Virus record (IMG/VR): IMGVR_UViG_3300044940_000160
Coordinates: 1-29,326 of that record
Strand: one strand, 5' to 3'
Length of the DNA: 29,326 bases
Source of the DNA: a virus
Shown here in pieces: positions 2,249 to 28,277 of this stretch (the stretch's first letter is position 1; every line of letters begins with the position of its first letter). The notes below the pieces were generated by a model. It was given only the letters and a program-made list of their open reading frames with translations, was not told where the DNA came from and did no database searches. Both the position numbers and the translations under genes were made by a program.

Positions 2249-3226
2249 TTAGATTTTTTTGCCCAATTCTATCTCACGCCTAAAACCTTTCATGCCGAAG
2301 GTAGTTTTTATAGTATCACAAACATAGTTGCCCTTTCGGTTAGGATATTTGTCATCTTCCAACACTACAGTACCAGAATGAACCAAATACGGTACGCCAA
2401 AACTTACAAACTTACCTCTATACCCTTCAAACTTATATTTTTCCAACTCCACCAAGCCAATTCTCTGCAATGTCTTGGTGTCAGTCGTTGGTATTCTTAG
2501 GTGAATAGTCCGTTGCTCGCCATCACTATCTCCAACCTCTACTTCTACTTTTTTATTATCTCGTAAAATATTGATAACCTTAGCCTTTAACCGCACATCT
2601 TCTTTTTTCTTGTATATCAAATCATCTTTGGCTATGTTTTTTTGAAAATGAAACTTAGCCCTACCACCTACTACCGTTTCCATTGGCTCGGTGTAAGGTA
2701 AACCCACAAATAAGGTAGCTCCTCTGAAATAGGCAGCTAACAAGTAGTTTTCCTTCAATTTTTGCAATGCCTGTGCTACCGTTACTTTTTCCAAACGGAA
2801 CGGAGCTAAGGTGATGTCTGGCACCTCTCCCAACTGTAATGGCTGTTTAATTTGTGTAAAAAGGAAGTTTAACACTTCTTTCAGTGTTATACTTCGCCAA
2901 CTTTTACTAATCAAATTACTGCGTTTCAACAAATAATTACTGTCTTCACAACGTATCTCGAAAGGTGTTTTAGGTTGTATCTCACTGACAAAGCCCAAAA
3001 ACTCTGTTTGCAAATTGCCATTATAGCCCAGCTTTACGGTTACACTATCTCCATGTTTTATTCTATCTTCCAACTTAGTCTGTTTACCTTCGTACCTTGC
3101 AAAGTTGGGCAGTTTGATAGTACAAGTATCACCCAATGTTTTCCAAGAAGTCTGTATCACCACTTCGTTTACACCTGTGATTTTGTACTTACCAATCATG
3201 ATTTCGCAACTTAGATAGTATGCCAT
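2249..3226 (-). CDS. Baseplate hub protein (P2 gpD / Mu gp44 type)
   Basis: A 325-residue protein. The N-terminus has the strand-rich pattern of late-control gpD proteins. A segment HGDSVTVKLGYNGNLQTEFLG near residues 58-78 matches their 'G D x V x V x x G Y ... F x G' signature, followed by FEIRCEDSNYLLKR. A middle helical region (LKEVLNFLFTQI) and a C-terminal beta domain ending RREIELGKKI complete the fold. The hub links the spike to the tail tube and caps the tape measure. Its position just before the spike agrees. The upstream gap (3227-3825) holds an opposite-strand gene and repeats, so this gene may need its own promoter or read-through. Confidence 0.75.
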   Translation of the reverse strand: MAYYLSCEIMIGKYKITGVNEVVIQTSWKTLGDTCTIKLPNFARYEGKQTKLEDRIKHGDSVTVKLGYNGNLQTEFLGFVSEIQPKTPFEIRCEDSNYLLKRSNLISKSWRSITLKEVLNFLFTQIKQPLQLGEVPDITLAPFRLEKVTVAQALQKLKENYLLAAYFRGATLFVGLPYTEPMETVVGGRAKFHFQKNIAKDDLIYKKKEDVRLKAKVINILRDNKKVEVEVGDSDGEQRTIHLRIPTTDTKTLQRIGLVELEKYKFEGYRGKFVSFGVPYLVHSGTVVLEDDKYPNRKGNYVCDTIKTTFGMKGFRREIELGKKI

Positions 3227-3230
3227 GTTA

Positions 3231-3275
3231 ATTATGTATAATATAGGATATATGATGTATGATATAATTTTGTAC
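3231..3275. repeat. Left arm of TATGATGTAT-type repeats
   Basis: A short run of ATGTATAATATAGGATATATGA-like units lies just upstream of the four-helix-bundle gene. Its inverted counterpart is the array at 3770-3832 on the far side of the gene. The same motif family appears at 8047, 19262 and 20813. Confidence 0.6.
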
Positions 3276-3283
3276 TATTACAG

Positions 3284-3661
3284 ATGAAAACTTATACTTC
3301 AATGAATATAACCCAAGAAAAAAGTTTTGCTTTTGCTATTCGTATTGTCAAACTCTACCAACACCTCACCCAAAGAGAACTTAATAAAGAGTTTGTAATG
3401 TCTAAACAGCTACTCCGTGCTGGCACTTCCATTGGTGCTAACATTCGTGGAGCCTATAACGCAGAAAGTGATGCAGACTTTATTCACAAATTGGCTGTCG
3501 CACAAAAAGAATGTGATGAAACTTGTTATTGGTTAGAACTTTTACACCAAACCAACTACTTAAGCAATTCAGAGTTTCAGTCCATACACCAAGACAGCAT
3601 AGCACTCCTTAAAATCATTCGTTCTATTATTTTAACTAAAAAAACAAACTCAAATAAATAG
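3284..3661 (+). CDS. Four-helix-bundle protein (S23 / Avd-like family)
   Basis: A 125-residue protein that matches the four-helix-bundle family (also called S23 or 23S rRNA intervening-sequence protein) well. It has KSFAFAIRIVKLYQHL near residue 13, then the hallmark QLLRAGTSIGANI at about 42-54, then DFIHKLAVAQKECDETCYWLELL at about 65-87 (written here in two parts: DFIHKLAVAQKE and CDETCYWLELL) and a last helix SIALLKIIRSII. The family forms small oligomers and includes the accessory proteins of diversity-generating retroelements, but no reverse transcriptase or variable/template repeat is visible here, so function is unknown. It is on the opposite strand to the surrounding tail operon, enclosed by opposed repeat arms and followed at once by a long hairpin, so it looks like separately acquired cargo. 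Confidence 0.92.
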   Translation: MKTYTSMNITQEKSFAFAIRIVKLYQHLTQRELNKEFVMSKQLLRAGTSIGANIRGAYNAESDADFIHKLAVAQKECDETCYWLELLHQTNYLSNSEFQSIHQDSIALLKIIRSIILTKKTNSNK

Positions 3662-3769
3662 AGGTTATTAAGATTTTGTAACATAGACTTTAGTCTGTGT
3701 AATAATTAACTGATTAGCAAGGTATTCCAAGCACAGACTGGAGTCTATGCTACAGACCTTAATAATCTC
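3661..3769. repeat. Long imperfect inverted repeat after the four-helix gene
   Basis: Outer arms GAGGTTATTAAG (3661-3672) and CTTAATAATCTC (3758-3769) pair with one wobble. Inner arms CATAGACTTTAGTCTGTG (3682-3699) and CACAGACTGGAGTCTATG (3732-3749) pair along 18 positions with two G-T wobbles. Each inner arm is also nearly palindromic. The structure starts at the last base of the stop codon, so it could form the 3' end of the transcript, or it may be a REP- or MITE-like element. Confidence 0.75.
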
Positions 3770-3832
3770 TAATATATCATCTATCCTACATCCTACATCC
3801 TACATCCTACATCCTACATCATATATCATACT
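3770..3832. repeat. Right arm repeats: 7-base CCTACAT array
   Basis: About five tandem copies of CCTACAT flanked by ATATATCATC- and CATATATCATAC-type sequence. The orientation is opposite to the arm at 3231-3275, so the two enclose the four-helix gene and the hairpin. The array ends at the stop of the DUF6046-like gene. Confidence 0.7.
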
Positions 3833-4575
3833 TCATTCAAAACTAATTCTATGTTTTCATCACTCACCGCCTCCAACTCGTAAGCTAAGGCACTTTGCAC
3901 CCCCACCATTGGGGGGAAACTAATCCTTTCAATAACAATATAATGAATACCTAACATTCGTAAAAAGTCGCACTGCACGGGCAAACTAATTGTGTCTTTA
4001 GTTTTCTCCGACTGCTTACGTTTATACAAGTTATTGAGTAACACCAACCAATCTTCAGGAAACTCCTCGTACACCGTACTACTCGTATTTTTCGCCACTC
4101 CGTTGATAGGGTCATAGTTAGTCGCAATGCCTTTAATATTTATCTTGTAGTCGTCAAGGCTTACTATCTCCTTTACTGTATAGTCCCTACCAGCCACAGG
4201 GGTTTTTACGACGTTCTTCACTGCCGATACCGTTATCAAAGGAGCATTTGGCAACAATACTCCATCTATAGTCATCGGGAAAAATAAAGGTGTACCCAAA
4301 TAAGACAACGCCACCTCTTTTGTAAAGTCGTAAGTCCTTACCTTTTCATAGTCTGTGCCTTTATTCCTCTCTGTCGTTTGTGCTGTACTATACCTATCCA
4401 ACAAATCCCCACTTTCTCTTACAGCTATTTCAGTTGCCAAAGGTTTTAGATAAGTGTCTTCTGTGGTAAACAAAGCACCTTGCCTCAATGCACCTTGCAC
4501 AGTTTGCGTATTGCTAACCGTTGGAAAAGCCATAGAGAGTAAGCTCACATACTGACGATTGATACGAAATTCCAT
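3826..4575 (-). CDS. DUF6046-like tail protein
   Basis: A 249-residue protein with an N-terminal helix-strand region, a segment TYLKPLATEIAVRESGDLLD, and an IxVSAVKNVVKTPVAGRDYTVKEIVSLDDY stretch (seen near residues 115-145) typical of a mixed alpha/beta domain. The middle resembles DUF6046, a domain common in Mu-like phages of Bacteroidota. It lies between tape measure and hub, the slot of the Mu gp43 DNA-circulation protein, so a role in the distal tail or baseplate hub is likely. Function is inferred from position. It starts 11 bases after the tape measure stop. Confidence 0.6.
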   Translation of the reverse strand: MEFRINRQYVSLLSMAFPTVSNTQTVQGALRQGALFTTEDTYLKPLATEIAVRESGDLLDRYSTAQTTERNKGTDYEKVRTYDFTKEVALSYLGTPLFFPMTIDGVLLPNAPLITVSAVKNVVKTPVAGRDYTVKEIVSLDDYKINIKGIATNYDPINGVAKNTSSTVYEEFPEDWLVLLNNLYKRKQSEKTKDTISLPVQCDFLRMLGIHYIVIERISFPPMVGVQSALAYELEAVSDENIELVLNEV

Positions 4576-13642: not shown

Positions 13643-14080
13643 ATGCTCGATATAAAAAAAGAAGAAGAAACAGCCCGACAACTATACATCTATGCGAACA
13701 ATTCCTATAAAGAAATAGGCAAATTGTTGGATAGAGACGAGGAAACGATTAGCCGTTGGGCTAAGAAAGGGAAGTGGTCAGAACAAAAAGAGATGATGCA
13801 GAACATCGGCAGTATGCGATTAACTATCACAATGAACCTGTATCAGAAAGCAATGGAAAAATCAAACGGTGATTTTAGTTTTGATGAAATGAACAAAGCT
13901 GCCGCCGCCATCAATGCCTTTGCTCCGAACAGACCCGATTTTGATAATGCCTTAAGGTTTGCACAGGAATTTTTAATCTATCTCACTTCCTTGCCCAAAA
14001 CGGACGAGAACATAGCTTTCGTTGAAACGTACAATCAACGAATAGCTCTTTTTTTGAAAGAGTATGAGAAAAAACGGTAA
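13643..14080 (+). CDS. Terminase small subunit-like protein
   Basis: A 145-residue protein. Residues about 10-45 form a helix-turn-helix of the terminase small-subunit type: QLYIYANNSYKEIGKLLDRD then EETISRWAKKGKWSEQK. The C-terminal half is helical, with FAPNRPDFDNALRFAQEFL and a final helix ending LFLKEYEKKR. Small subunits bind the packaging start site and load the large subunit. It is the first gene of the plus-strand late operon, and the large-subunit gene follows across an unusual 735-base repeat-filled gap. No further family assignment is certain. Confidence 0.75.
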   Translation: MLDIKKEEETARQLYIYANNSYKEIGKLLDRDEETISRWAKKGKWSEQKEMMQNIGSMRLTITMNLYQKAMEKSNGDFSFDEMNKAAAAINAFAPNRPDFDNALRFAQEFLIYLTSLPKTDENIAFVETYNQRIALFLKEYEKKR

Positions 14081-14171: not shown

Positions 14172-14815
14172 CTGTTCACTAATAACTGTTCACTAATAAC
14201 TGTTCACTGATAACTGTTCACTGATAACTGTTCACTAATAACTGTTCACTGATAACTGTTCACTGATAACTGTTCACTAATAACTGTTCACTGATAACTG
14301 TTCACTAATAACTGTTCACTGATAACTGTTCACTGATAACTGTTCACTGTTCACTGATAACTGTTCACTGATAACTGTTCACTAATAACTGTTCACTGAT
14401 AACTGTTCACTAATAACTGTTCACTGATAACTGTTCACTGATAACTGTTCACTGATAACTGTTCACTAATAACTGTTCACTGATAACTGTTCACTGATAA
14501 CTGTTCACTGATAACTGTTCACTGATAACTGTTCACTGATAACTGTTCACTAATAACTGTTCACTGATAACTGTTCACTAATAACTGTTCACTGATAACT
14601 GTTCACTGATAACTGTTCACTGTTCACTGATAACTGTTCACTGATAACTGTTCACTGATAACTGTTCACTGATAACTGTTCACTAATAACTGTTCACTGA
14701 TAACTGTTCACTAATAACTGTTCACTGATAACTGTTCACTGATAACTGTTCACTGATAACTGTTCACTGATAACTGTTCACTGATAACTGTTCACTGATA
14801 ACTGTTCACTGACAA
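14172..14815. repeat. 45-unit, 14-base tandem array between terminase genes
   Basis: The unit is CTGTTCACTRATAA, where R is A or G. I read 42 full units of 14 bases, two lengthened units of 21 bases (CTGTTCACTGTTCACTGATAA at 14340 and 14613, where GTTCACT is doubled) and a last unit ending GACAA right before the ATG of the large subunit; 43 x 14 + 2 x 21 = 644 bases. The A/G order before the two long units is the same (A G A G G), which suggests block duplication of about 20 units. TAA occurs in every unit and the period is not a multiple of 3, so no frame is open. It forms the whole leader of the large-subunit gene. Confidence 0.95.
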
Positions 14816-16882: not shown

Positions 16883-18928
16883 ATGTTGAATACACTATTG
16901 GGTCTATTTGGCAAGTCTGCAACTACGCAAACAGACAGATTATTGACCGACATCAAAAAGAAAAGAGCCAAACTCTCTGACTATACACGCAGGACTATTA
17001 CCAACTATCAAGCATCTCGGTTCAAAGAACGAATGCAAATAGATAAGTGGCAAGAGGCTATTATTAAAGCAGAGCAACCTCCGTATTTTTCTCGTTACGA
17101 CTTGTATGAGATATACAAGTGGACTTGCGATGACGGGCAGGTTATCTCCACTTCACAAACTCGTAGGAACAAAACTTTGGCAGAAGAATTTGCTATTGTT
17201 GCAGCCAACGGTACAAAAAATGAGGCATTGACCAAGCTATTCAAAAAGTTAGCTTTTTACGATTTCATGGAGAATGCCTTAGATACCAAATTTTGGGGGC
17301 ATACACTATTAGAAGTAGAGGCAAACGAAAATGGTTTAATAGCTGTCAATTTGATTGATAGAGAGTTTATTTCGCCTGAAAGGGGCTTGTTTTTAATCAA
17401 TCCTTTATTATCAAGTAGTAACGGTTTCAATTATCGTGAGTTAGCAGAGGAATTAGATTTATTAGAAATAGGCAAACCCAAAGACTTGGGTTTGTTAAGA
17501 AAAGTGGCGAGGTATGCGATTTGGAAAAATTATAGCTTTTCAGATTGGAGCAGACATTCGGAAAAATACGGAATGCCCACACTCATAGCTCATACCAATA
17601 CCAGTGATGAAGTGGAGTTAGATGCAATGGCGAAAGACTTAGCAGATTTAGGCAGCAACGGTTGGGCTATCTTAGACGATAACGACAAAGTTACCTTGCT
17701 ACAAGCTAACTCATCTGACCCCTACCAAATCTATTTGGAGTTTATCAAAGTCAATGACGAGCAAATTTCCAAGATAATTGGAGGACAAACCATGACTGCC
17801 GATAACGGTAGTAGCCGCAGCCAAGCAGAAGTACACGAAAGAGTATTGGATAGCTATGTGGAGGCTGATATGCGTTGGTTGGCATTTATCATTAATGACA
17901 ATCTACTACCTTTTTTGATTCGCAAAGGCATAACCGAATTAGAAGGACATGAATTTGTATGGACTTACTTGCAAGAAAAAGACAAGGAGCAAAAAGACAA
18001 CAACACGAAAGGGAAAAAAGATAAGACAGACACTAAGAACTTAAGTTTTTTTCCCACCGCCCTACTATCAGACAACACCAGTGCAAAACTTGCTAAGGCT
18101 CATTTGAAGTTAGTAGGGCTATACAACTTAGAGAGCTTACCCATAGAGCAACTCAATGCAGAAAATTCGTTTGAGGCTATTTGGGAAACATTAGCACGAG
18201 AACTACACAACGGCTTAACTCCTGATACTACACCCTTACTATTGGCTACGGCAAATAAATTGATGAAGGCGTTACAAGAAGGGGGCGTGTCTTATCAGAG
18301 TGTACCTAACTTGGTAACATACATGACCGAGAACATCTTTGTATTTTCTGGCTTTAAGACTTACCAAGAGTTGCAGCAAGCAAGTTTGTTGCTACGAGAT
18401 GCACAGGGCAAACTACGTTCTTTTGCGGACTTTCGAAAACAAATTAAAAACCTGAGTGCTACCTATAACAGAGCCTACTTGCAAGCAGAATACAACCATG
18501 CTGTAGCCTCCTCGCAAATGGCTGTGAAGTGGCAAGAATTTGATAACCAAAAAGACCACTACGACTTGGTGTATGATGCTGTAGGCGACTTACGGACAAG
18601 ACCAGAACACGCTGCCTTAGATGGTGTGGTAGAGCCTGTCGACAGTCCATTTTGGGACACACACTACCCGCCAAATGGTTGGAACTGCCGATGCACAGTG
18701 TACCAAGTGAACAAAGGAACTAAGGGGACAAAATTACCCAAAGACATACCTGCCAATCCTATCTTGTTCCAAAACAATGTGGGTAAAACAGGTATAATTT
18801 TCCCAAGTTCGCATCCTTACTTTCAACAACTCACTGACGAGCAACGCAAGGTCGTGAATGGAAATATAGAAAAGGCAAGAGCATTATATGAGAGAGAATA
18901 TAAATGGCAATCCGAAGACAACAAATGA
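16883..18928 (+). CDS. Portal protein fused to MuF-type head morphogenesis domain
   Basis: A 681-residue protein made of two parts. Residues 1-365 match Mu gp29 portals (DUF935): FSDWSRHSEKYGMPTLIA at 219-236 and GGQTMTADNGSSRSQAEVHE at 300-319. A charged linker (about 365-388) follows. Residues 490-610 match the SPP1 gp7/MuF (Mu gp30) domain: RTRPEHAALDG at 571-581 and PPNGWNCRC at 596-604. In Mu these are two genes, gp29 and gp30. Here they form one frame. The portal is the dodecameric DNA entrance of the head, and MuF proteins are carried in the head near it. A single chain would fix portal and MuF at equal numbers unless the protein is cut or the C-terminal part starts internally. Confidence 0.88.
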   Translation: MLNTLLGLFGKSATTQTDRLLTDIKKKRAKLSDYTRRTITNYQASRFKERMQIDKWQEAIIKAEQPPYFSRYDLYEIYKWTCDDGQVISTSQTRRNKTLAEEFAIVAANGTKNEALTKLFKKLAFYDFMENALDTKFWGHTLLEVEANENGLIAVNLIDREFISPERGLFLINPLLSSSNGFNYRELAEELDLLEIGKPKDLGLLRKVARYAIWKNYSFSDWSRHSEKYGMPTLIAHTNTSDEVELDAMAKDLADLGSNGWAILDDNDKVTLLQANSSDPYQIYLEFIKVNDEQISKIIGGQTMTADNGSSRSQAEVHERVLDSYVEADMRWLAFIINDNLLPFLIRKGITELEGHEFVWTYLQEKDKEQKDNNTKGKKDKTDTKNLSFFPTALLSDNTSAKLAKAHLKLVGLYNLESLPIEQLNAENSFEAIWETLARELHNGLTPDTTPLLLATANKLMKALQEGGVSYQSVPNLVTYMTENIFVFSGFKTYQELQQASLLLRDAQGKLRSFADFRKQIKNLSATYNRAYLQAEYNHAVASSQMAVKWQEFDNQKDHYDLVYDAVGDLRTRPEHAALDGVVEPVDSPFWDTHYPPNGWNCRCTVYQVNKGTKGTKLPKDIPANPILFQNNVGKTGIIFPSSHPYFQQLTDEQRKVVNGNIEKARALYEREYKWQSEDNK

Positions 18929-19019
18929 AGTTGTTTTTCTTACAGATACGCTATTTGATGTGATAGATATTTATCAGCAAGAAGGAGATGTGTTTGTTTT
19001 TCTCAAAGAAAAATTATAA
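18888..19019 (+). CDS. Small acidic protein of 43 residues
   Basis: An ATG at 18888, inside the end of the portal-MuF gene in another frame, opens 43 codons to TAA 19017-19019. From residue 14 the translation reads VVFLTDTLFDVIDIY followed by QQEGDVFVFLKEKL, with alternating hydrophobic and acidic residues that look like a real small protein. The 41-base overlap fits translational coupling. No family recognised. It could also be a remnant of a longer gene. Confidence 0.5.
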   Translation: MRENINGNPKTTNEVVFLTDTLFDVIDIYQQEGDVFVFLKEKL

Positions 19020-19027
19020 ATTCGTAC

Positions 19028-19219
19028 ATGGAATCTAGGAAAGATTTTTTTGATACAGAATACCCTAAACTTAACCGAAAAGAGAAAATAAATTTTTGGT
19101 TTGGGTATTGCTACCACTTGAATAGGCAAGATAGCTACGGTGAGGAAAACGAAAGTTGTTTTAATCCAACCATTTACCAACAATTGCCCTTAGAAAAAGA
19201 AATAAAACTTTCATCTTAG
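19028..19219 (+). CDS. Small hypothetical protein of 63 residues
   Basis: Starts 8 bases after the previous small gene and runs in the same direction. The product is charged and aromatic (KINFWFGYCYHLNRQDSYGE in the middle) with no membrane segment. No family recognised. Position between the portal-MuF gene and the repeat-bearing gap suggests it is the end of this transcript segment. Confidence 0.45.
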   Translation: MESRKDFFDTEYPKLNRKEKINFWFGYCYHLNRQDSYGEENESCFNPTIYQQLPLEKEIKLSS

Positions 19220-19261
19220 CGCCTCACATCTTTGTTTATCTTTGCTTACCCCATGAGCCAC

Positions 19262-19522
19262 GTTTTTATGTATGATATATAATGTATAATATATAGGCTT
19301 TCCGCATCAAAATTTTTAAGTAATTTGTATGTAATAAAATCTATTTTATTGCTACATAATGGAACACAGCACACACAGAATTACACAGATTTTTCAATTT
19401 TTATCCATAAATCTATATTTTTTCTATGTATCTATGTTACTATGTGGTTAAAATGATTTTGGTGCGGAAAACCTATATAATATATCATACACCATATATC
19501 ACACATCATCTATAATAAAAAC
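19262..19522. repeat. Opposed repeat arms enclosing a 186-base inverted-repeat element
   Basis: This gap of about 300 bases carries no gene. At 19267-19292 and 19476-19512 lie TATGATATATAATG-type and ATATATCATACACCATATATC-type repeats in opposite orientation. Between them sits an element with terminal inverted repeats TATAGGCTTTCCGCATCAAAAT (19292-19313) and its partner ATTTTGGTGCGGAAAACCTATA (19456-19477), two mismatches in 22. The inside is AT-rich and includes ACACACAGAATTACACAGATTT-like repeats but no open frame of note. Confidence 0.75.
19292..19477. mobile_element. MITE-like element with 22-base terminal inverted repeats
   Basis: 186 bases bounded by TIRs that match at 20 of 22 positions. 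Too short for a transposase, so if mobile it would need one supplied in trans. TATA at both ends could be part of a TA-type target duplication, but the flanking repeats make this unclear. It lies between the head genes and the J-like baseplate gene and leaves both intact. Confidence 0.5.
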
Positions 19523-20329
19523 ATGGCACGCACCAAAGAACAAATATTACAAAGCATATTAAACTGCAAGGACAGTTTTGAACAACTATCCGTTCTCAAT
19601 TCGCAATCAATCACCGCCATTTGGAAAAAGTGGGCGAGTGTAGTTGCCACCATCATTTATTACTTTGAAGTCCAGATGGACTTATTCCGTTCAGAAATAG
19701 CCGACATCACAGCCAATGCTGTAGTAGGGCGTGCAGATTGGTACGTGAAAAAAGCCTACGAGTTTCAGTACGGAGATGATTTGGAAGTGATAGACGGTGT
19801 AGTTAAATACCCTGTCATAGACCCTACCAAAAGGCTTATCAAACGTGCAGCCTACGCCAAAGACACCAATAACAACACCTTGCTCAAGGTAGCTACTACT
19901 GACAACACAGGCAAGATTATCGCCATCAACCCCGCACAAATGCAGTCATTTACAGACTACATCAACAACCTGATGTTTGCAGGTTCGTACATCGCCATAC
20001 AGTCCCAAGATACAGACTACCTCAAGCTATTCGTAGATGTGTACTATGACCCCTTAAAATATGCCGATGAAGTAAAAAGCAATGTGGACAGAGCTGTCAA
20101 AAACTATTTGGCTACATTACCCTTTGACGGCAGCGTAAAAAAGAATGCTATCATAGATGCGATACAAGCCGTAGATGGGGTCGAAGATGTGGAAATAACG
20201 ACCATAGAAGTTCGTACAAACACAGGTACATTCTCTCCGATGGGGCGTATCTATACACCTGTGGCGGGTTATATAGAAATAGATAGTGCTTTTGAGCTTA
20301 TCAATCATATTACGCTAAAAACTACGTGA
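19523..20329 (+). CDS. Baseplate J-like protein (Mu gp47 type)
   Basis: A 268-residue protein. It begins with a helical region and a conserved IADITANAVVGRADWYVKKA motif (residues about 54-74), then has the J-type C-terminal order: ILxxINNLMFAGSYIAIQSQ, LFVDVYYDPL, a helix KSNVDRAVKNYLATLPFDGS (about 189-208), and IDAIQAVDGVEDVEITTIEV near 215-234. These last segments are the classic baseplate J / Mu gp47 pattern 'v..ai...~gV.dv.v~~~'. It forms wedge parts around the hub. In Mu it follows gp46. Here it is on the other late operon. Confidence 0.7.
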   Translation: MARTKEQILQSILNCKDSFEQLSVLNSQSITAIWKKWASVVATIIYYFEVQMDLFRSEIADITANAVVGRADWYVKKAYEFQYGDDLEVIDGVVKYPVIDPTKRLIKRAAYAKDTNNNTLLKVATTDNTGKIIAINPAQMQSFTDYINNLMFAGSYIAIQSQDTDYLKLFVDVYYDPLKYADEVKSNVDRAVKNYLATLPFDGSVKKNAIIDAIQAVDGVEDVEITTIEVRTNTGTFSPMGRIYTPVAGYIEIDSAFELINHITLKTT

Positions 20330-20347
20330 GGTAGGCTATAAAGATGT

Positions 20348-20364
20348 AATCTTTTAGAAAGATT
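20348..20364. other. Small perfect hairpin in a 64-base gap
   Basis: AATCTTT and AAAGATT (7 bp) with loop TAG, 16 bases after the stop of the J-like gene. No U-tract follows, so a terminator is unlikely. It may stabilise the 3' end or be chance. Confidence 0.35.
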
Positions 20365-20393
20365 TATAGGGTATCATATATCATAATAAACAC

Positions 20394-20819
20394 ATGAACG
20401 TACTCATTTACAACCTAAACATTGGGAGGCAAATCCAACGCCTCCTATCCACATTTGATAAATACTTTATGAACCCTGTTACGCAGTCTTTAGAAAAACA
20501 GGAGTTCAATGTTTTGTGGCTATATGCCCTGTGTTATCCTTTGATAGAACTCCACAAAACCTTTTTGGAGTTTACTTTGGAACAACGAGAGGAAGCCTAC
20601 GCCAACTCGCAAACATTACTACTTGCGTATAGGCTAAATAGACGTTTTGACACCGTACAACAACGCATCTGGTTGGAGAACCACACCCTCAACGCCACTT
20701 CACCTGCACCTTACCACTTTACGGTTCATGTGCCACAAGGCATAGATACGGAGGCAGTGCGGAGGTTTGTTGCTAAGTACACTATCGTTGATAAAAACTT
20801 TATTATACATAGTGTATGA
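20394..20819 (+). CDS. Hypothetical baseplate-region protein (gp48 position)
   Basis: A 141-residue protein following the J-like gene after a 64-base gap. The N-terminal half is helical and aromatic (NVLWLYALCYPLIELHKTFL at about 39-58). The C-terminal 35 residues are beta-like, with PYHFTVHVPQGIDTEAVRRF then VAKYTIVDKNFIIHSV. The last part resembles the end of tail protein I / Mu gp48-type proteins ('f.v.vp.....~~~~~~l...I...kp.~~~~~'). Position after J supports that role. Its stop lies inside the start of a long repeat region. Confidence 0.5.
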   Translation: MNVLIYNLNIGRQIQRLLSTFDKYFMNPVTQSLEKQEFNVLWLYALCYPLIELHKTFLEFTLEQREEAYANSQTLLLAYRLNRRFDTVQQRIWLENHTLNATSPAPYHFTVHVPQGIDTEAVRRFVAKYTIVDKNFIIHSV

Positions 20820-21067
20820 TGTATGATATAGGATGTATGATATAGGATGTATGATATAGGATATATGATATAGGATATATGATATAGGATATATGATATA
20901 GGATATATGATATATGATATAGGATATATGATATATCATACAGCAAAAACAAAAATATCATACATCATACATCATACATCATACATCATACATCATACAT
21001 CATACATCATACATCATACATCATACATCATACATCATACATCATACATCATACATCATACATCATA
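20813..21067. repeat. Opposed TATGATATAGG and CATACATCAT arrays
   Basis: The left arm (20813-20940) repeats 14- to 16-base TGATATAGGATATA units. A short linker CAGCAAAAACAAAAA follows. The right arm (20957-21067) is a very regular 9-base array, ATCATACAT, about 12 copies. The arms are in reverse orientation to each other and could form a cruciform. The array ends two bases before the ATG of the next gene, so it forms that gene's leader. Confidence 0.9.
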
Positions 21068-21069
21068 AC

Positions 21070-21624
21070 ATGGACTATAAAAAATTTGCACAGCAACTCC
21101 GAGTTACAGAACAAGAAATAAAGGACTTGGAACAAGCAATAGTGCTTGACACCGAAAAAATAGCCTTACGTTACAGCATGAAGGCATTTAAACAGGCTCA
21201 ATGGAATAATCAATCTTGGGAAAAACGAAAAGACAGTAGCCTTAGTAAATATGACAGGCGTAACCGAGATAAACCAAGGGCTTTGTTGTTTAAGTCTGGC
21301 AATCTGCGAAGGTCAGTAACCGCACAAAGCAGTGGTAACAAAGTCATCGTATCCAGTGATATGCCCTACTCACAGCTACACAACGAAGGAGGAACTATAG
21401 ACCACCCTGGGGGTACTCCGTATGTCATCAACGGTAAAACGAAGAAGGCAAAGTTCATCAGTCGCACAAAGGCAGAGCAATTAAGAGGCAGCAATAAAAC
21501 TGTACAAGTTACGAAAGCCCACAAAATTAAAGTACCCAAACGTCAGTTCATCGGCAATTCGCCAGAGTTGGACAAAGAAATAGAGGAAATGATAGATAAA
21601 AAATTAGCTAAACTTTTCAAATGA
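21070..21624 (+). CDS. Phage virion morphogenesis / tail completion protein (Mu gpG-like)
   Basis: A 184-residue protein of the virion morphogenesis family: RALLFKSGNLRRSVTAQS (residues about 71-88), VSSDMPYSQLHNEGGTI (about 95-112), then a C-terminal part with KVPKRQFIGNSPELDKEIEE (about 155-174). The order 'l..sG.L~~s~... ~~~~YA.~HN.G... ~ipaR.Flg~s~~~~~~i' is shared with Mu gpG and P2 gpS tail completion proteins. It helps join tail to head. It overlaps nothing and is followed one base later by the gp37-like gene. Confidence 0.85.
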   Translation: MDYKKFAQQLRVTEQEIKDLEQAIVLDTEKIALRYSMKAFKQAQWNNQSWEKRKDSSLSKYDRRNRDKPRALLFKSGNLRRSVTAQSSGNKVIVSSDMPYSQLHNEGGTIDHPGGTPYVINGKTKKAKFISRTKAEQLRGSNKTVQVTKAHKIKVPKRQFIGNSPELDKEIEEMIDKKLAKLFK

Positions 21625-21625
21625 T

Positions 21626-22117
21626 ATGCTACTAAAAAACTGCTACATCGCCATTCGTGATAGACTAAAAACTATTAACGAGCTACAAGAAGTAACTTGG
21701 TACACCCAGCAAGACCGAGTAAACGAACAGGAAATGTTTGCCGTACCTGTGGCATACATCTTGTTTGATACTATAGAACTCACCTCTCTGCCCCAAAAGG
21801 TGCAAATGGTAGAACGGAAGATTAAATTTAAAGTAAGGCTGGTAAGTGAAAGTTACCAAGATACGGAGGAGGCTATTCTAAGCCACTTAGATTTAGTACA
21901 ACAAATCTACGAGGCGTTGCACAACTATAATCATAAAGGCGGCGACACGCAGCTACTGAACACCATCACCCGCACAGCCATAAAGCCCGAACACGACCTT
22001 AGCAACCTATTGATAACGGAGCAAACTTTTGAAGCTATTGCGTTTGATTATACTAATCAAACAGCCTATGTTAAAAGAAAAGTTGGCTATCAAATCAACG
22101 CTATTACCGTTAAATAA
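21626..22117 (+). CDS. Mu gp37-like tail terminator candidate
   Basis: A 163-residue protein. It opens with a helix (MLLKNCYIAIRDRLKTIN), then has the strand VAYILFDTIELTSLPQK and the strand-helix KIKFKVRLVSESYQDTEEAI, and ends in FEAIAFDYTNQTAYV. Tail terminators and Mu gp37 share this small alpha/beta order and follow the morphogenesis gene. It starts 1 base after that gene's stop. The family assignment is inferred from gene order and fold pattern. Confidence 0.55.
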   Translation: MLLKNCYIAIRDRLKTINELQEVTWYTQQDRVNEQEMFAVPVAYILFDTIELTSLPQKVQMVERKIKFKVRLVSESYQDTEEAILSHLDLVQQIYEALHNYNHKGGDTQLLNTITRTAIKPEHDLSNLLITEQTFEAIAFDYTNQTAYVKRKVGYQINAITVK

Positions 22118-22152
22118 ATACTTTTGTCAATTTATTTTTCCTTAATATTTAT

Positions 22153-22160
22153 TAAATTTG
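22153..22160 (+). promoter_or_regulatory. Bacteroidota-type -7 element before HTH gene
   Basis: TAAATTTG fits TAnnTTTG, the -7 consensus of Bacteroidota, 22 bases before the ATG at 22182. A TTTTG at 22122-22126 could be the -33 element, but its spacing (26 bases) is longer than usual, so this is a weak call. Confidence 0.4.
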
Positions 22161-22181
22161 AGGTCAAAACCCCACAAGCCC

Positions 22182-22400
22182 ATGACGATGATAGCACCAA
22201 CACCAAAACAAAAGGCGGCGATAACTCGGCGAAAAAATACGGAGTTGCGTAATGCTGCCATTATACACCTATTCACCGAGCTGTATCAAGTCAAACGGAT
22301 TAGATTTGATGATACTATACAGGAGTTGTCTATTAAATACGCATTAAGCCACTCCACAATAAGAAAAATCTTGAAAAGCACCAAAACAAAAAAAGCCTAA
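22182..22400 (+). CDS. Small HTH protein, possible regulator
   Basis: A 72-residue basic protein from ATG 22182 (a TTG at 22158 in the same frame is less likely because it lies inside the promoter-like element). The N-terminus is rich in Lys and Arg (PTPKQKAAITRRKNTELRNA). The C-terminus has a helix-turn-helix pattern: IQELSIKYALSHSTIRKILK, with an LSHSTIRKIL recognition-helix style segment. It may bind DNA or RNA and regulate late or lysogeny genes. It is the last gene before the terminator, with its own possible promoter. Confidence 0.6.
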   Translation: MTMIAPTPKQKAAITRRKNTELRNAAIIHLFTELYQVKRIRFDDTIQELSIKYALSHSTIRKILKSTKTKKA

Positions 22401-22421
22401 CTAACGAATTAGTAGGCTTTT
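22391..22421 (+). terminator. Intrinsic terminator after the HTH gene
   Basis: AAAAGCCTA ... TAGGCTTTT forms a stem of about 9 bp, extended by CTAA/TTAG, and is followed by T-rich sequence. It begins within the last codons of the HTH gene and would end the plus-strand late transcript. The sequence is almost the same as the stem at 23541-23570. Confidence 0.8.
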
Positions 22422-22637
22422 ACATATATGCTATGTCCTACTTTAAGAAGATTAATAAATCTCCGAATTTCGGACTTCTTTCAGGGTGTCAAACTGAATT
22501 ATTATGCTGCAAACATACACATATTTATTTACTCTTTATAGGTCGTTTTAGCAAAGAAGAAACACCTTTTAGGGTGTTGATTTCCAAGAACAAGTATAAA
22601 TACGTGCGTATTTATTAGGTTGTTTTTTCATAATGAT
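22422..22637. other. Structured convergent gap, possible small RNA
   Basis: No convincing gene. The region contains TCCGAATTTCGGA (near 22462-22474) inside an AAGAAG/CTTCTT pair, AACACC/GGTGTT (22561-22578), and TAAATACG-TG-CGTATTTA (22597-22614) followed by TTGTTTTTT (22619-22627), a terminator-like end. An open frame of 61 codons (22433-22618, plus) exists, but its end lies in the last hairpin and it has no family resemblance. The sequence could encode a small RNA between two transcription units that meet here. Confidence 0.4.
22597..22628 (+). terminator. Second terminator-like hairpin in the convergent gap
   Basis: An 8-bp perfect stem TAAATACG/CGTATTTA with loop TG, followed by ATTAGGTTGTTTTTT. 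It faces the plus strand and may be a back-up stop for the late transcript or the end of a small RNA. Confidence 0.5.
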
Positions 22638-23516
22638 TTATTGTTTAGTTCTGTAAACCATTTCTCCACTTATCTCAAATTGGAATTTCTTTGCGAAATC
22701 TTCCAACGTCATTTCAACTTTCATAGTTGCACAGTACTCCTTCCAATCTTTTTGGAACACTGCTAAGGGCATACTTATCCTTTTATCTATCTGCGACATC
22801 GGCACTACCGTTGCCAACACACTCGCAACACCTACACTGCGGTTAAGCCTTTGAGGGTTTTCACGTCTTTCAAAATACTTTTGATAGTCCTCCATAATTT
22901 CTTGTTTTTCGTTTTCGCAAAGGGTCTTGGCAGTCGTTTTGTAAACCACAGGAGGCACCGTTTTAGTAGCCATTTTACGTTGTATCTCTCCGTTCTTGAT
23001 GTTCTTCACAAAGTTGCCTATGCTCTTATCATCTTTTAGAGGGAACTCGTTGGCTTTAAAAAAGAATACTAACTCTTCTTTCGTAAAGTCCACGCCCATC
23101 AGCATACCCACTTCCTTCACAGTCTTTTTGTACTTCACTTTAAATATGTCCAGATAAGTGTCCAAAAATAACTTCACCTTGTTAGAGGTTTCAGATTTTT
23201 GGATATACAGTAACAGCACAAAGTCCAGCTTTTGCGTAGTCCAGTCAATCGTATATTTCTTATACATCTCCTTAATGACCTCCATCGTCTTGGCTGTATT
23301 AAGACCTGTGTCTAAGTAGCAAATAAATTCGTTGAGCTGATGGAGATAAATTGTCCTAACTTCAACCACTTTCACCAACCCTAATTCAGCTTTATTTAAC
23401 AAGCATTGAAACTCATTGCCTACAAAAAACTTTGCAGGGTCGTGCAGCCTTAACGTAGTGAATGCGTCGCAAAACAACTTCCCATTCCAATTATTTGAAA
23501 ATTTTAACTGCTCCAT
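22638..23516 (-). CDS. Early-region protein, possible ASCH/PUA-like N-terminus
   Basis: A 292-residue protein, last of the early operon. The first 85 residues (KFSNNWNGKLFCDAFTTLRL, then FFVGNEFQCLL and GLVKVVEVRTIYLHQLNEFI, split here) show the beta order of ASCH/PUA-like domains, which bind RNA or modified bases: 'W..K....~fTT~R......~~vGd.~.v.l~.......a.v~~v~~~~l'. The rest is helical, with a C-terminal segment ISMPLAVFQKDWKEYCATMK. I do not recognise the whole protein. A role in early phage regulation or replication is a guess from its place in the early operon. Confidence 0.45.
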   Translation of the reverse strand: MEQLKFSNNWNGKLFCDAFTTLRLHDPAKFFVGNEFQCLLNKAELGLVKVVEVRTIYLHQLNEFICYLDTGLNTAKTMEVIKEMYKKYTIDWTTQKLDFVLLLYIQKSETSNKVKLFLDTYLDIFKVKYKKTVKEVGMLMGVDFTKEELVFFFKANEFPLKDDKSIGNFVKNIKNGEIQRKMATKTVPPVVYKTTAKTLCENEKQEIMEDYQKYFERRENPQRLNRSVGVASVLATVVPMSQIDKRISMPLAVFQKDWKEYCATMKVEMTLEDFAKKFQFEISGEMVYRTKQ

Positions 23517-23540
23517 GATTAATGATTATTAATTGGTATA

Positions 23541-23570
23541 AAAAAAGCCTACTTTTTACGGTAGGCTTTT
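23541..23570 (-). terminator. Intrinsic terminator within the early operon
   Basis: Read on the minus strand: AAAAGCCTAC, loop CGTAAAAA, GTAGGCTTTT then more T. It lies after the stop of the Gam-like gene and before the last early gene, so part of the early transcript may stop here. The stem core AAGCCTA/TAGGCTT repeats the one at 22391-22421. Confidence 0.75.
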
Positions 23571-23595
23571 AGGTTAGTATTGAGTTTTAGTTTTA

Positions 23596-24042
23596 CTATT
23601 CGTCGTCATCAGACTTTTCCACAACCAATTTGGCTTCGTTAGTCTTTACTTCAATACCGTATGCTGCCAAGTCAATGTTTTGCATATTCTTGAAAGTGAA
23701 TCCTATGGAACTTGGGTAGTCATCTATAAACTTTCCGATAAGCTCCTTATTCTTTTCATTGAAGTTATACACAGGGCTTGCCGTTTTCCAGACCAACTTT
23801 GCAGCACCTAAGTTGCAAGACTTTCTGAACTTACCATTCTCATCTTTAAACCAGTCGGGGTTTTTATTGGCAATTTCGGTCAATTCCTCTGTCGCCTCCT
23901 TGATTTCCTTGTCCAGCAAAGCCTTGTATTCTTTGGCTTCCAAAATCTTACGAGCCAAATCTCTTGCTTTTTGCGTGGTTTCTACGACTTGGACAGCCTC
24001 AACAACCTGTTTTTGGGCTTCCTTTTCTTCTTGAATAAACAT
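23596..24042 (-). CDS. Possible Gam-like nuclease-inhibitor protein
   Basis: A 148-residue protein with a long N-terminal coiled coil (about 5-60, EAQKQVVEAVQVVETTQKAR then ARKILEAKEYKALLDKEIKE), a loop PDWFKDENGKFRKSCNLG near 64-81 and a beta/helix end. Mu Gam has the same plan (a long helix followed by a beta hairpin around a 'G...~....G.i~~r~' stretch), and it binds linear DNA ends to block nucleases. The position in the early operon downstream of MuB fits Mu's kil-gam order loosely. The acidic C-terminus (VEKSDDDE) is unlike Mu Gam. The call is tentative. Confidence 0.45.
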   Translation of the reverse strand: MFIQEEKEAQKQVVEAVQVVETTQKARDLARKILEAKEYKALLDKEIKEATEELTEIANKNPDWFKDENGKFRKSCNLGAAKLVWKTASPVYNFNEKNKELIGKFIDDYPSSIGFTFKNMQNIDLAAYGIEVKTNEAKLVVEKSDDDE

Positions 24043-24088
24043 AGTTAAATGGGGTTTTAATTGTGATTAAATAAACAGTAAACTGATA

Positions 24089-24499
24089 TTAACTACCATC
24101 ATGCAGCATTTTTACAGGTGGCGTAGCACTTTTGTTTTCTCTTTGCCTTTCCCATGTAAAGTGCCTATTGTGCCTTTCATGGATTTGTTTGTAGATACTC
24201 TCAAATGCTGACCAAAACTCTTCTTGTGTTTCCAGCAATTCATAAAGTGTTTCTGCCTCTACCATTGTTAGTTTTATGGTTAGAAAATCCCGCAAAAACC
24301 AACCTTTTTTCCCCGTTGCTTTGTGTAGTTTGCTGTAAACACTGTTCAAAATACTTGCATTCTTTAAGTCCACTAATTTGGTGATGGGTGTAAATACCAC
24401 CAATGCCGTTGATGTCATCATGAGCCACCTACGAAAAGCCTCTACTTCCGTAGGAATAATTTTATACTTAACCAGCTCGTCTATTTCAAAGATGTCCAT
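24089..24499 (-). CDS. Hypothetical early protein
   Basis: A 136-residue protein. It has an N-terminal acidic helix, an aliphatic segment MTSTALVVFTPITKLVDLKN at about 28-47, a central basic stretch KLHKATGKKGWFLRDFLTIK and a C-terminal helix rich in His and Arg (HERHNRHFTWERQRENKS). No family recognised. It starts 3 bases after the stop of the preceding gene and is clearly part of the early operon. Confidence 0.55.
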   Translation of the reverse strand: MDIFEIDELVKYKIIPTEVEAFRRWLMMTSTALVVFTPITKLVDLKNASILNSVYSKLHKATGKKGWFLRDFLTIKLTMVEAETLYELLETQEEFWSAFESIYKQIHERHNRHFTWERQRENKSATPPVKMLHDGS

Positions 24500-24502
24500 G
24501 CG

Positions 24503-25000
24503 CTAATTCTTACTTGTAAATTTATAGAGATAAATAAGGCTTTGCATTGCCCAGCTTTGCACTTCGCTACATTGATGCAGGGTAGTGTAGTGGTATAGCA
24601 TCTCGTCGAGATTGGAAATAATAGTTTCCTCCTCGCTGTCAAACTGACTTTTATAGTAGAAAGGCTTGTGGTAATCGTGATATTGTTTAGGTTTACTTTT
24701 CATATTACCAGCAAGAGGTGCAGCCCCAATATCTGTTACTCTAAAAGCTGTCTGCTGTGTTTTTTGGCATAAACGATTGATAAACAAGGTATCTACTTCG
24801 TTCCATTTTCGTTCCCACACTGCCCAAAACATATTTAGCGTAACTAAATGAGACATATCTTTTCCTTCTTCAACACTTAGTTTGTCTATAAACTGAATAG
24901 CTAATTCAGTAGATAAAATTTGCAGTAGCATACTGTCTATGCCTGTGATGGCTGCTACTTTTTCACGAATATTTGAGTTACTTTTTGTGGCTGTATTCAT
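24503..25000 (-). CDS. Hypothetical early protein after MuB
   Basis: A 165-residue, mostly helical protein. It includes FIDKLSVEEGKDMSHLVTLN and MFWAVWERKWNEVDTLFINR, then a tyrosine- and histidine-rich loop YHDYHKPFYYKSQFDSEEE, and a final helix ending LIYLYKFTSKN. It lies 18 bases after the MuB stop. No family recognised. In Mu-like phages short genes after B are often non-essential early (semi-essential) functions. Confidence 0.55.
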   Translation of the reverse strand: MNTATKSNSNIREKVAAITGIDSMLLQILSTELAIQFIDKLSVEEGKDMSHLVTLNMFWAVWERKWNEVDTLFINRLCQKTQQTAFRVTDIGAAPLAGNMKSKPKQYHDYHKPFYYKSQFDSEEETIISNLDEMLYHYTTLHQCSEVQSWAMQSLIYLYKFTSKN

Positions 25001-25018
25001 AGAGGGTGCATTTAGCTA

Positions 25019-25945
25019 TTAACGTATTCTTTTCAACAGTTCTAAAGAAACCTTAGTATCCTTCGCCAACTTAGCGACATTCGTGATAGAACTTTTTAAC
25101 TTACCAAAGTTGCTTGCGTGATAGGTTTTTATGAAGTTCACACAGTCATCATCGTCAATACCGTATGTCTTACAGATAACCTCCACCAACTTGTCTTCTG
25201 GCTTTTGTATTTCCTGCCAATATTCAATACGCCTGTGCAGTTCTCTAAAACCCATCGTGTCTTTACGGACTCGCATATCCATATAGTTTTTGAAATACGT
25301 AGTACCTGCCAACACGATGCCCAATCTATCTACCGTCCTATCATAAATCAATCGGATTAACCGCAAACAGTTGTCATTGAGTTTGCCCACATCATCCAGC
25401 AACAACAACGTACCCTGTTGCTTGGTAAGTGCCTGCACGACCCCCCGCAGTATCGTAGCCTTGTCGCCTTCCCTTTCCACCCCTAACTCCTCTGCTATGC
25501 CTTGCAAAAACTGTTTTTGGTTCATCAATTCATCACAAAGCACGTAGTACGTTGCCTTTGGATTTTCTTTTTTGTACTCTTGCAAGGAGCAAGTTTTACC
25601 GTAACCAGTTTCTCCGTAAATAGCCAACATTCTGCTATTAATTTGGGCATCTTGGCAAAGATTATGAATAGTCAAAAATCCTTTGCCTTTGATGATACGC
25701 CAGCGAAATTGCTGACTAACCTCATTTATTTCTACAGTATCTTGTTGGCATACAGCCTCTACTTTCCACCAAATCTCGTCTGATATTTTTTCCCATTTAT
25801 CATTTAATATGTTAGAGATATTGGCTGTAGAAACCTTAGCAATCTCTGAGAAACGATTTTGGCTAATTCCCTTACTCTGCAAATAGGAGTCTATCTTCTT
25901 TTTAATAGCTTCCTTTTGTAGCTGTGTTAAAGCTGGTGTTTTCAT
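25019..25945 (-). CDS. MuB-like AAA+ ATPase, transposition target selector
   Basis: A 308-residue protein. Residues about 10-45 form a helix-turn-helix (KGISQNRFSEIAKVSTANIS), as in MuB. The AAA+ core follows: Walker A GETGYGKT at 111-118, Walker B LLLLDD at 180-185, and IVLAGT (sensor-type) at 210-215. The C-terminal region carries helices ending NVAKLAKDTKVSLELLKRIR. MuB binds target DNA with ATP, recruits MuA and stops self-insertion. The usual Walker B ends in Asp-Glu. Here the second acidic residue is Asp, so hydrolysis may be altered. The gene follows MuA by 13 bases, the normal A-B order. Confidence 0.9.
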   Translation of the reverse strand: MKTPALTQLQKEAIKKKIDSYLQSKGISQNRFSEIAKVSTANISNILNDKWEKISDEIWWKVEAVCQQDTVEINEVSQQFRWRIIKGKGFLTIHNLCQDAQINSRMLAIYGETGYGKTCSLQEYKKENPKATYYVLCDELMNQKQFLQGIAEELGVEREGDKATILRGVVQALTKQQGTLLLLDDVGKLNDNCLRLIRLIYDRTVDRLGIVLAGTTYFKNYMDMRVRKDTMGFRELHRRIEYWQEIQKPEDKLVEVICKTYGIDDDDCVNFIKTYHASNFGKLKSSITNVAKLAKDTKVSLELLKRIR

Positions 25946-25958
25946 AATGTATGTAGAT

Positions 25959-28277
25959 TTAGTCGTTTACGTATTCATAACTTGGCTCTTCACCATCGTA
26001 CAAGCCTGTGTTCTGTTCTGTTGATAGTGTAAATGCCGTTTCACTTTGTGGACTTACTGTAGTCCACTTGCGTACAGGGCTGTGTGCTTGTATTTGGCTT
26101 TCAAAGTCTGCCACAAGGCTTTCGTACATTGCCTTGTGTGCTTCATGTTGTCTTTGAAGCCTTTTCAACTCCGCATTTCCATCGCCAATTATCAATTTAT
26201 CTTCCTCCGTTTGTTCTACCTTAGCTCTCTGTGCCGTTGGTTTTTCATAAACCTCACAGATAAAAACTTCCGTAGTAGGGTTGTAGAGATAAATTTTGTT
26301 AGTGTCATGAGGCAGGTATTTAACCTTGTAAAGCCCATCGGCAGAGACTTTTTTGCGAATATCCTCTCGGCTCAACAAATCCACAGGCAGTTTGTAAATC
26401 CTATCTTTGACTTGGAGTTCAAATCTCCTCTCTGCCACCGTAGTTACACAGCCTAAATGATGGGCAAAAATTTGCACCATTGCCAATTCGTCAAGCACAG
26501 TACATTGGGGTTGAATATTTTCTAAAAAGTACTCTAAACGAGTCTTTTTACGGTTCTTCGGGTGCCTTTCATTACACTTAAAGTCCCTATATTCATTCCA
26601 CTTCGATATTACTTGCTCAGTAGTTACGCATTGATGAGGGCTATTCGCCTTACGAACATCTGGGTTTTGTTTACCAGATTGCTTGGTGGACTGTATGTTG
26701 TTGCCCACGTACCATTGCAGTTGCGAAAAGAACTCGTCTTGAGCTATTCGCTGCCTACTCTCGGCCAATTTTGCTTGTGGCTTTTGGCGTAAAGTCGTGA
26801 AATGAAATAGTCTTTGCAGTTCCTTTTCAAATTCACTCTTCACCCTTTTATTCTGTCCATCCTGTCTATCCTGTCCATCCTGTCTATCCTGTCCATCCTG
26901 TCCATCCTGTCTATCCTGTCCATCCTGTCTATCCTGTCCATCCTGTCCATCCTGTCTATCCTGTCCATCCTGTAATCCTGTCCTTTTCCTAGCACCCTTC
27001 GTGAAAATTCTCTCCATTTCCACTTCGTAAGGTGCGATAAACTTCCCTGTTTTTTCTTTAATGAACAGCATAGCATTGTAGAGAGCCTTAAAAACAAGTT
27101 CTTTATTATAACTAAGACCATGAGCAGACCCCAAAGGTATATCTGTGGCAGCATCCCAAATAGTGTAGGTGATTAACCTATCCGTACTTGCGACCAGCGT
27201 ACCATTAGGTTTGGTTTTTAGTAGATAGAAGTTGTTGTAGTAATCATCCATTGTTACCAAACTTAATGAATATGTAGGCAATTTCAACCTGCTAAAAGGA
27301 CTGTACTTATCGTTATGGTACTTCGTTCCGTGCCTATAAGCATCTGCGTTCACTACAAAATCTTTGTCCGTAATGAACCTTCTAACAGTTTCAAAATCTA
27401 CTATTTCGTAACTGTATTCATGCAAATTCTTGTTAAAAACCAAATCTCCAACTTGTATCACCTCACCTGTTTGCGTATTTACATACTCAACTTTCGTGTA
27501 CAGGCTTTTATCACTCATTCCCCTGCTGTTATTATCAATAATTTGCCCTCTAAAATTCCTTTTGGGCAATACTTTGAGAGGCATATCTCGCAAAATCTCT
27601 TTCGCTATCTTGCAAAATGCACTGTAAATAGCCGGTGCAGATAGCTTAGTAGTGCCTTCGGTGTACAGTTTGTAGATGATAGCCTTGTGCCACTGTTGAA
27701 ACTTCGAATTATTTTGGTTGTTCTTTCGCCCGTCTATCAGGCTTTTCCAGCCTTTTTCTTGAAAAACTTTGATTTTGTTTTTCAATGCGAGTGAAGTTTT
27801 AAGAGCTTTACCGTAAATACTGCCACTTTGCCACTCCTCGTTCATCAACAGAAGTAATTCTTCCCAACTTACTTTACTTGTAAAGTTTGGCACTGCCTCC
27901 AGCCACCCAACTAACGACATCATTTGTTGGGCTTCTTTTTCCGTAAGCCCTTCTTGGATACATTCAGCATAAATTGATAACTTAGGTTTGATGTGGCTAA
28001 GTATATCTAACTTCAATAACTCTTTTTGATGGCTTCCCAACAAACTTTGCTCATGCATAGCCTCTGACAGCAATTTTTCTCTACTGCCTAACTTCTCTCT
28101 ATGACTTTTTAACTTCTCATCATATAGAATATACTTTTTGCACTGATACTCCATTTGTTGTATAACATTTTGAGCCACTTTTACTCGCACATAATCATAA
28201 AACTTCATATCTACTTGCCGCACTCTGTCATAGCTGACCCATAATTGGTTAGCTAATAGCATTACGTTTGGTGTCAT
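25959..28277 (-). CDS. MuA-type DDE transposase with in-frame repeat insertion
   Basis: A 772-residue protein in the A position beside MuB. Residues about 140-340 correspond to DNA-binding and linker domains. The DDE core starts with Asp344 or Asp345 in SLVTMDDYYNN (339-349), continues with IWDAATDIPLGSAHG (373-387), and reaches the Glu candidate E506 in AKLAESRQRIAQ (502-513). In the usual place of the second Asp, after PYEVEM, the sequence has Glu422 (PYEVEMERIF). A 39-residue run of DGQ/DRQ units (437-475) follows at once. Residues 640-772 form the beta-barrel and C-terminal MuB-contact part, acidic at the end (GEEPSYEYVND). It would cut and join phage ends if active. Confidence 0.85.
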   Translation of the reverse strand: MTPNVMLLANQLWVSYDRVRQVDMKFYDYVRVKVAQNVIQQMEYQCKKYILYDEKLKSHREKLGSREKLLSEAMHEQSLLGSHQKELLKLDILSHIKPKLSIYAECIQEGLTEKEAQQMMSLVGWLEAVPNFTSKVSWEELLLLMNEEWQSGSIYGKALKTSLALKNKIKVFQEKGWKSLIDGRKNNQNNSKFQQWHKAIIYKLYTEGTTKLSAPAIYSAFCKIAKEILRDMPLKVLPKRNFRGQIIDNNSRGMSDKSLYTKVEYVNTQTGEVIQVGDLVFNKNLHEYSYEIVDFETVRRFITDKDFVVNADAYRHGTKYHNDKYSPFSRLKLPTYSLSLVTMDDYYNNFYLLKTKPNGTLVASTDRLITYTIWDAATDIPLGSAHGLSYNKELVFKALYNAMLFIKEKTGKFIAPYEVEMERIFTKGARKRTGLQDGQDRQDGQDGQDRQDGQDRQDGQDGQDRQDGQDRQDGQNKRVKSEFEKELQRLFHFTTLRQKPQAKLAESRQRIAQDEFFSQLQWYVGNNIQSTKQSGKQNPDVRKANSPHQCVTTEQVISKWNEYRDFKCNERHPKNRKKTRLEYFLENIQPQCTVLDELAMVQIFAHHLGCVTTVAERRFELQVKDRIYKLPVDLLSREDIRKKVSADGLYKVKYLPHDTNKIYLYNPTTEVFICEVYEKPTAQRAKVEQTEEDKLIIGDGNAELKRLQRQHEAHKAMYESLVADFESQIQAHSPVRKWTTVSPQSETAFTLSTEQNTGLYDGEEPSYEYVND
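26853..26969. repeat. Thirteen 9-base repeats inside the transposase gene
   Basis: On the plus strand the unit is CTGTCCATC or CTGTCTATC (Y = C/T). On the coding strand it gives GATGGACAG (Asp-Gly-Gln) or GATAGACAG (Asp-Arg-Gln). The order shows a higher 45-base period (C T C T C). The period of 9 keeps the reading frame open. The same TCCTGTC-type motif forms the array at 29137-29326. Confidence 0.95.

Follow-up and report, generated by a model that had tools for sequence, protein, structure and literature searches.

A nine-base tandem array in the catalytic domain of a MuA-type phage transposase, and a group of relatives with glutamate at the second catalytic position

In a Mu-like phage, the gene for the transposase carries an in-frame array of 9-bp units, which probably represents a recent expansion in an insertion-tolerant surface loop of the MuA-type catalytic domain, grown by slippage or unequal recombination, tolerated by the enzyme, and closer to neutrality than to a switch shaped by selection. 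The DNA analysed, referred to here as the window, is an IMG/VR virus record of 29,326 bases whose gene content is that of a Mu-like phage. Besides the features collected in Table 1, it holds genes for a terminase, a portal, a DUF2586 protein, a tape-measure-like protein and a baseplate. In our view, the more interesting result is not the repeat but a D-E-E subfamily of MuA-type transposases, in which a glutamate stands in the place of the second catalytic aspartate (Asp2).

Table 1. Coordinates of the transposase region, its catalytic codons and the 9-bp arrays in the window
Feature	Position	Strand	Basis
MuA-like transposase, 772 aa (phrog_310 family)	25959..28277	-	phrog_310 match E 2.8e-25, best stretch residues 487-724; AF2 model vs 1bco; MuB gene follows
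MuB-like AAA ATPase with N-terminal HTH, partner gene	25019..25945	-	phrog_296 E 7.4e-53; AAA_22
Possible Gam	23596-24042	-	Mu_Gam-like Pfam match below cut-off
Asp344 codon, first catalytic acid (TMDD motif)	27246..27248	-	invariant in alignments
Glu422 codon GAG, column of the second catalytic Asp, right after strand b4	27012..27014	-	alignments; model
Glu506 codon, third catalytic acid (KLAE)	26760..26762	-	invariant in alignments
Thirteen 9-bp units GATGGACAG/GATAGACAG = (Asp-Gly/Arg-Gln)13, residues 437-475	26853..26969	-	sequence, TRF, shuffle test
Degenerate upstream unit ACAGGATTACAG, residues T-G-L-Q, array start	26970..26983	-	TRF, sequence
Related array outside evident genes, period 9 and 8+9=17, cut off by contig end	29137..29326	.	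TRF, sequence

An earlier note on this DNA had described thirteen 9-base units at 26853-26969, read in frame as Asp-Gly-Gln or Asp-Arg-Gln, and both the borders and the reading hold exactly, as does its remark that a 9-base period preserves the reading frame. The units follow the order G R G G R G R G G R G R G and are identical except for one variable base, the fourth. For the pattern GATRGACAG, present 13 times, a two-unit search matches 12 times with overlaps counted, and never in 100 dinucleotide shuffles. With the degenerate first unit counted in, TRF reports a period of 9 and 14.7 copies over 26853-26983; these unit counts rest on the assembly, in which short reads may have led to collapsed units or a wrong copy number. 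A block of five units (45 bp) is present twice, forming a higher-order repeat, so that 45-bp blocks were probably duplicated. The near-uniform units, together with this 45-bp repeat, therefore indicate a young array and point to a recent expansion. The 39 residues encoded comprise 13 Asp and 5 Arg, with a net charge of about -8. In the 13 coding units the variable base is G or A, never T, which occupies that position in 15 of the 21 units of the non-coding array; T would give a TGA stop in the transposase frame.

The non-coding array, at the end of the record, shares with the coding one an ACAGGAT.G core on the same strand, and consists of GATTGAC (8 units), GATTGT (7) and GATGGAC (6). Its units would put stops in the Asp-x-Gln frame, the other frames are also stopped, and the 8-bp variant shifts the frame. 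A four-unit string of GATNGACAG occurs in 26 stretches among 84,980 prokaryote genomes, from many phyla and mostly outside evident genes. Among 2.9 million viral contigs, the three-unit string of the 9-bp repeat was found in 4 stretches and not once in a transposase; among 395 Bacteroidota genomes it was found in one, that genome having been chosen beforehand for carrying it. Owing to this rarity, two arrays within 3 kb are no coincidence, and a common origin is likely. It had been proposed that an intergenic repeat family entered the gene: the kinship of the two arrays is borne out by the shared core, the strand and the rarity of the unit, but the direction of spread is not.

Several candidate kin of the arrays were discarded. 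The viral 9-mer matches proved to be low-complexity genes (GSTGST or DPVDPV) read in another frame, and three of the DGQ-rich matches from Bacteroidota genomes (L124, L128, L129) were collagen-like DGxDGx proteins built on unrelated DNA units. A blastn search of both arrays against plasmids gave no match, a search in which the low-complexity filter of BLAST may hide such repeats. The long form of the repeat was not found printed in the open-access literature, and the listed matches to its short forms were unrelated. In one Spirochaetaceae MAG (GH23; L097, L102, L114), several GATNGACAG arrays lie on different contigs, and the repeat therefore multiplies within some genomes.

Since an array of the same unit family lies at a distance of 2.2 kb and is itself cut by the end of the contig, the coding array could have been stitched in from its intergenic neighbour by the assembler. 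We consider such an artefact highly improbable. The coding unit GATAGACAG is absent from the other array, while GATTGAC and GATTGT are absent from the coding one; moreover, an open homologous frame continues on both flanks, and the array, of 117-131 bp, can be spanned by a 150-base read.

The growth of the array would proceed through gain and loss of units by replication slippage or unequal recombination, mechanisms suggested because the units are homogeneous, blocks are duplicated and other arrays of the phage vary. With a period of 9 and only G or A at the fourth base, each event would add or remove whole Asp-Gly/Arg-Gln triplets and leave the protein unstopped. Such growth would yield a loop that is disordered, acidic and hydrophilic, that the enzyme would tolerate, and that we regard as nearly neutral more than as a switch shaped by selection. 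In bacteria, repeats whose period is a multiple of three occur preferentially in coding regions (Mrazek 2007, cited in PMC4679880). That copy number does change in this phage is seen directly by comparison with a sister contig, L007 (IMGVR_UViG_3300044993_000211), which covers 17909-25798 and ends within MuB, short of the transposase: the heptamer arrays at 20815-20940 and 20957-21067 differ from it by 56 bp (8 units) and 35 bp (5 units), respectively. The coding array itself would likewise vary in copy number, and the enzyme would tolerate its loop.

Other heptamer arrays are present in the window. Between an ORF ending at 14080 and the terminase gene, a 641-bp array (14172-14812) holds about 47 copies of TAACTGTTCACTGA, 31 of them perfect, and resembles the TAACTGA heptamer family of Beggiatoaceae and Bacteroidetes (PMC4679880). 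Amid the tail genes, and on the opposite strand, 3284-3661 encodes a four-helix-bundle protein of the 23S rRNA intervening-sequence type (PF05635, E 1.5e-25); this gene is flanked by heptamer arrays (3237-3266 and 3772-3836) and resembles an inserted cassette. The TAACTGA heptamers described in Beggiatoaceae, Cyanobacteria and Bacteroidetes (MacGregor 2015, PMC4679880) are comparable to the coding array in forming long perfect tandem arrays and in their taxonomic range. These intergenic repeats differ from it in having a period of 7 instead of 9, and in stopping a reading frame when in forward orientation.

The place of the array in the protein was examined with an AlphaFold2 model built from the window protein and 36 IMG/VR homologues, which has a mean pLDDT of 61.6 and values of about 80-90 in the RNase H core. 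The model contains strands at 340-355, 361-375 and 381-387, a helix at 392-410, strand b4 at 418-421, and helices at 474-490 and 502-515. It matches the Mu transposase core 1bco with a TMt of 0.66 (Foldseek) and a Z of 17.7 at 3.5 A over 247 residues (VIA-align), and it also matches the Mu transpososome (4fcy), 1bcm and TnsB structures. Residues 427-476, with the array inside them between b4 and helix 474-490, fall below a pLDDT of 50 and are almost structureless. The array is thus modelled as what is probably a disordered, hydrophilic and acidic loop right after the strand carrying the second catalytic acid, and the flexible linker suggested in the earlier note is probable on the same grounds.

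This loop varies in length among relatives, L058, L051, L060 and L027 having some 7 to 16 additional residues and L164 having 10. The 39-residue repeat of the window has no counterpart in them: no repeat occurs at this position among more than 150 relatives inspected. Within the D-E-E group, the spacing between the second and third catalytic acids is 35-36 residues in 86 of the 88 members, 46 in L164 and 85 in the window, where it would also be 46 without the array. An equally long acidic loop lacking DNA repeats, which the earlier note had named as the observation that would refute its idea, is thus absent from these homologues. In MuA of phage Mu, the region of about residues 350-360, including site R355, between D336 and E392, accepts pentapeptide insertions as well as natural indels (PMC3362531). 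Against such tolerance in the window protein, subdomain II-alpha of MuA is mostly insertion-intolerant, and the neighbourhood of the active site is a more hazardous place for an insertion than a distant loop. By analogy with the biology of Mu, the transposase would be essential in this phage.

In some core loops of MuA, insertions increase activity by as much as about twofold (PMC3362531), and one could imagine a tunable linker, a dial similar to a contingency locus, whose copy number is selected and whose length adjusts the assembly or activity of the transpososome. The period and the base choice preserve the frame, and other arrays of the phage change copy number quickly, which favours such a dial. 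However, a selected dial predicts recurrence in related phages, and the repeat is confined to the window among the relatives inspected; we regard this reading as distinctly unlikely.

With respect to the catalytic residues, the array had been placed between the second Asp and the Glu. The place is correct and the residue is not, since Glu422 stands there: of the strict D-D-E triad, the window transposase has the first Asp and the Glu, and Asp2 is absent. The motif of the window reads EMER, and every intact core among the MuB-anchored homologues of Bacteroidota phages has PYEIVxDN or an Asp-bearing variant of it. Three relatives obtained by searching Bacteroidota genomes with the window protein show NDR or SDR at the same place. 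A frameshift hiding a normal DNQGG motif was discarded, as inspection of the remaining frames by eye over about 26970-27060 showed no such motif. A private inactivating mutation was also dropped, as Glu occupies the same column in L164 and L168, and then in 80 more proteins.

The resulting group comprises 87 sequences (L164, L168, L174-L178 and L191-L270) and the window. L164 and L168 came from a wider search, and the others from three gut phage records, two more genomes and a scan of IMG/VR, where 275 stretches encode relatives of the group, 80 of which were read. Glu fills the Asp2 column in 88 of 88 members, with the signature D344 D345, E420, E422 and E506 in window numbering; Asp stands there in more than 70 other relatives and in 11 of the 11 DDE-type references aligned with the 88. 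A MuB gene lies on the same strand close behind the transposase in all 77 fetched viral loci with room downstream. In a model of L191 the Glu ends strand b4 (370-374), and this model matches Mu transposase and TnsB structures. Three group members tested against Pfam gave no match above the cut-off, and PHROGs places the same three in phrog_310. These sequences make it more likely that the missing Asp is a trait of a MuA lineage with a natural D-E-E triad than that it is damage. From the conservation and the gene context, we infer that the members of the group would be active as transposases. No relevant description of a DEE-type Mu transposase was found among the open-access papers listed, though one may exist elsewhere.

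An early alignment suggested that the array Asp might be the catalytic one: a simple MAFFT run paired an array Asp with the catalytic Asp, and each unit offers one. That the repeat itself is catalytic, its Asp residues standing in for Asp2, is nevertheless scarcely credible, and the pairing was rejected, given that better-sampled alignments put Glu422 in the Asp2 column. Furthermore, the first array Asp lies 15 residues downstream, in the stretch modelled as disordered, and the Glu-bearing relatives do without any array.

Whether the window belongs with these relatives was addressed by trees from which the array residues were excluded. With all sequences, the window joins the long-branched DDE pair L088/L093, weakly (73/78). 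When these two and the likewise long-branched L137 and L166 are left out, it is placed inside the Glu clade (97/93), and a single change accounts for the trait. A single clade of all Glu-bearing proteins is not rejected by the AU test (p 0.352). The window protein is at most about 19-20% identical to any relative, L164 being the highest, and sits on a very long branch; no close relatives of it appeared in the viral and genome contigs searched directly. Common descent of the window with the Glu clade is likely on this phylogenetic evidence.

That long branch and low identity also bear against the favoured reading of a tolerated, near-neutral expansion, as they could also mean relaxed constraint on a decaying enzyme. 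A dying prophage would have lost Asp2 (D to E) in its transposase, and the repeat would then have drifted into the loop. Asp2 is invariant in the DDE-type relatives, and in piggyBac the equivalent Asp-to-Glu change at the second acid, D346E, blocks or strongly cuts excision (PMC2533014). The sister contig L007 also carries, at 3202-3751, an extra 551 bp with a small, putative gemA-like ORF that is absent from the window at 22598-22599. However, the Glu recurs in 87 other open-frame genes and is not necessarily a lesion, the 772-residue frame is open, and the non-T base in 13 of 13 units suggests that the frame still mattered. The comparison with L007 also speaks against decay: 17 substitutions in 7,799 aligned bases (0.22%; 99.8% identity), with no small frameshifting gaps. 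Six of those 17 substitutions fall within 11 bp of the MuB gene (25324-25334) and resemble one multi-base event. Decay appears unlikely in consequence, and our order of likelihood runs from near-neutral tolerance through gene decay to a selected dial.

A broader reading, which we put forward tentatively, is that a large and common phage subfamily, with Bacteroidota hosts as far as known, relies on a D-E-E triad that is active and accompanied by an invariant E-x-E motif in the strand, and that in the window the acidic loop grown by slippage directly after the Glu may, through its length, modulate this unusual active site. The group and the window share the D-D...E-x-E...E signature and a MuB gene downstream, and differ in that the group is without the array. 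MuA of phage Mu (1bco/1bcm, 4fcy; D269, D336, E392) is alike in the RNase H-fold core, the positions of the acids, the MuB partner and a loop after Asp2 that tolerates insertions. Unlike MuA, with which it shares about 15% identity in the core, the window protein has a Glu for D336 and a 39-residue repeat loop, and it gives no match to the Pfam Mu transposase models. The MuA-like transposases of Bacteroidota phages (Porphyromonas phage010a, Flavobacterium fF4, Bacteroides p00 type) belong to phrog_310 as well, with the transposase followed by MuB. In contrast to the window, they keep Asp2, mostly as PYEIVxDN, and have no repeat; from Asp2 to the Glu there are 36 residues in the Porphyromonas and Flavobacterium members measured.

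The coding array is a clear natural case of tandem growth in the catalytic domain of a transposase, at a place where laboratory insertions in MuA are tolerated, and it offers a ready test of the loop length that a transpososome can accommodate. Of more consequence, dozens of intact Mu-type transposases have an invariant Glu as their second catalytic residue, which calls into question the strictness of the DDE triad; scans in which the lack of Asp2 marks a transposase as dead would mistakenly drop a whole phage group.
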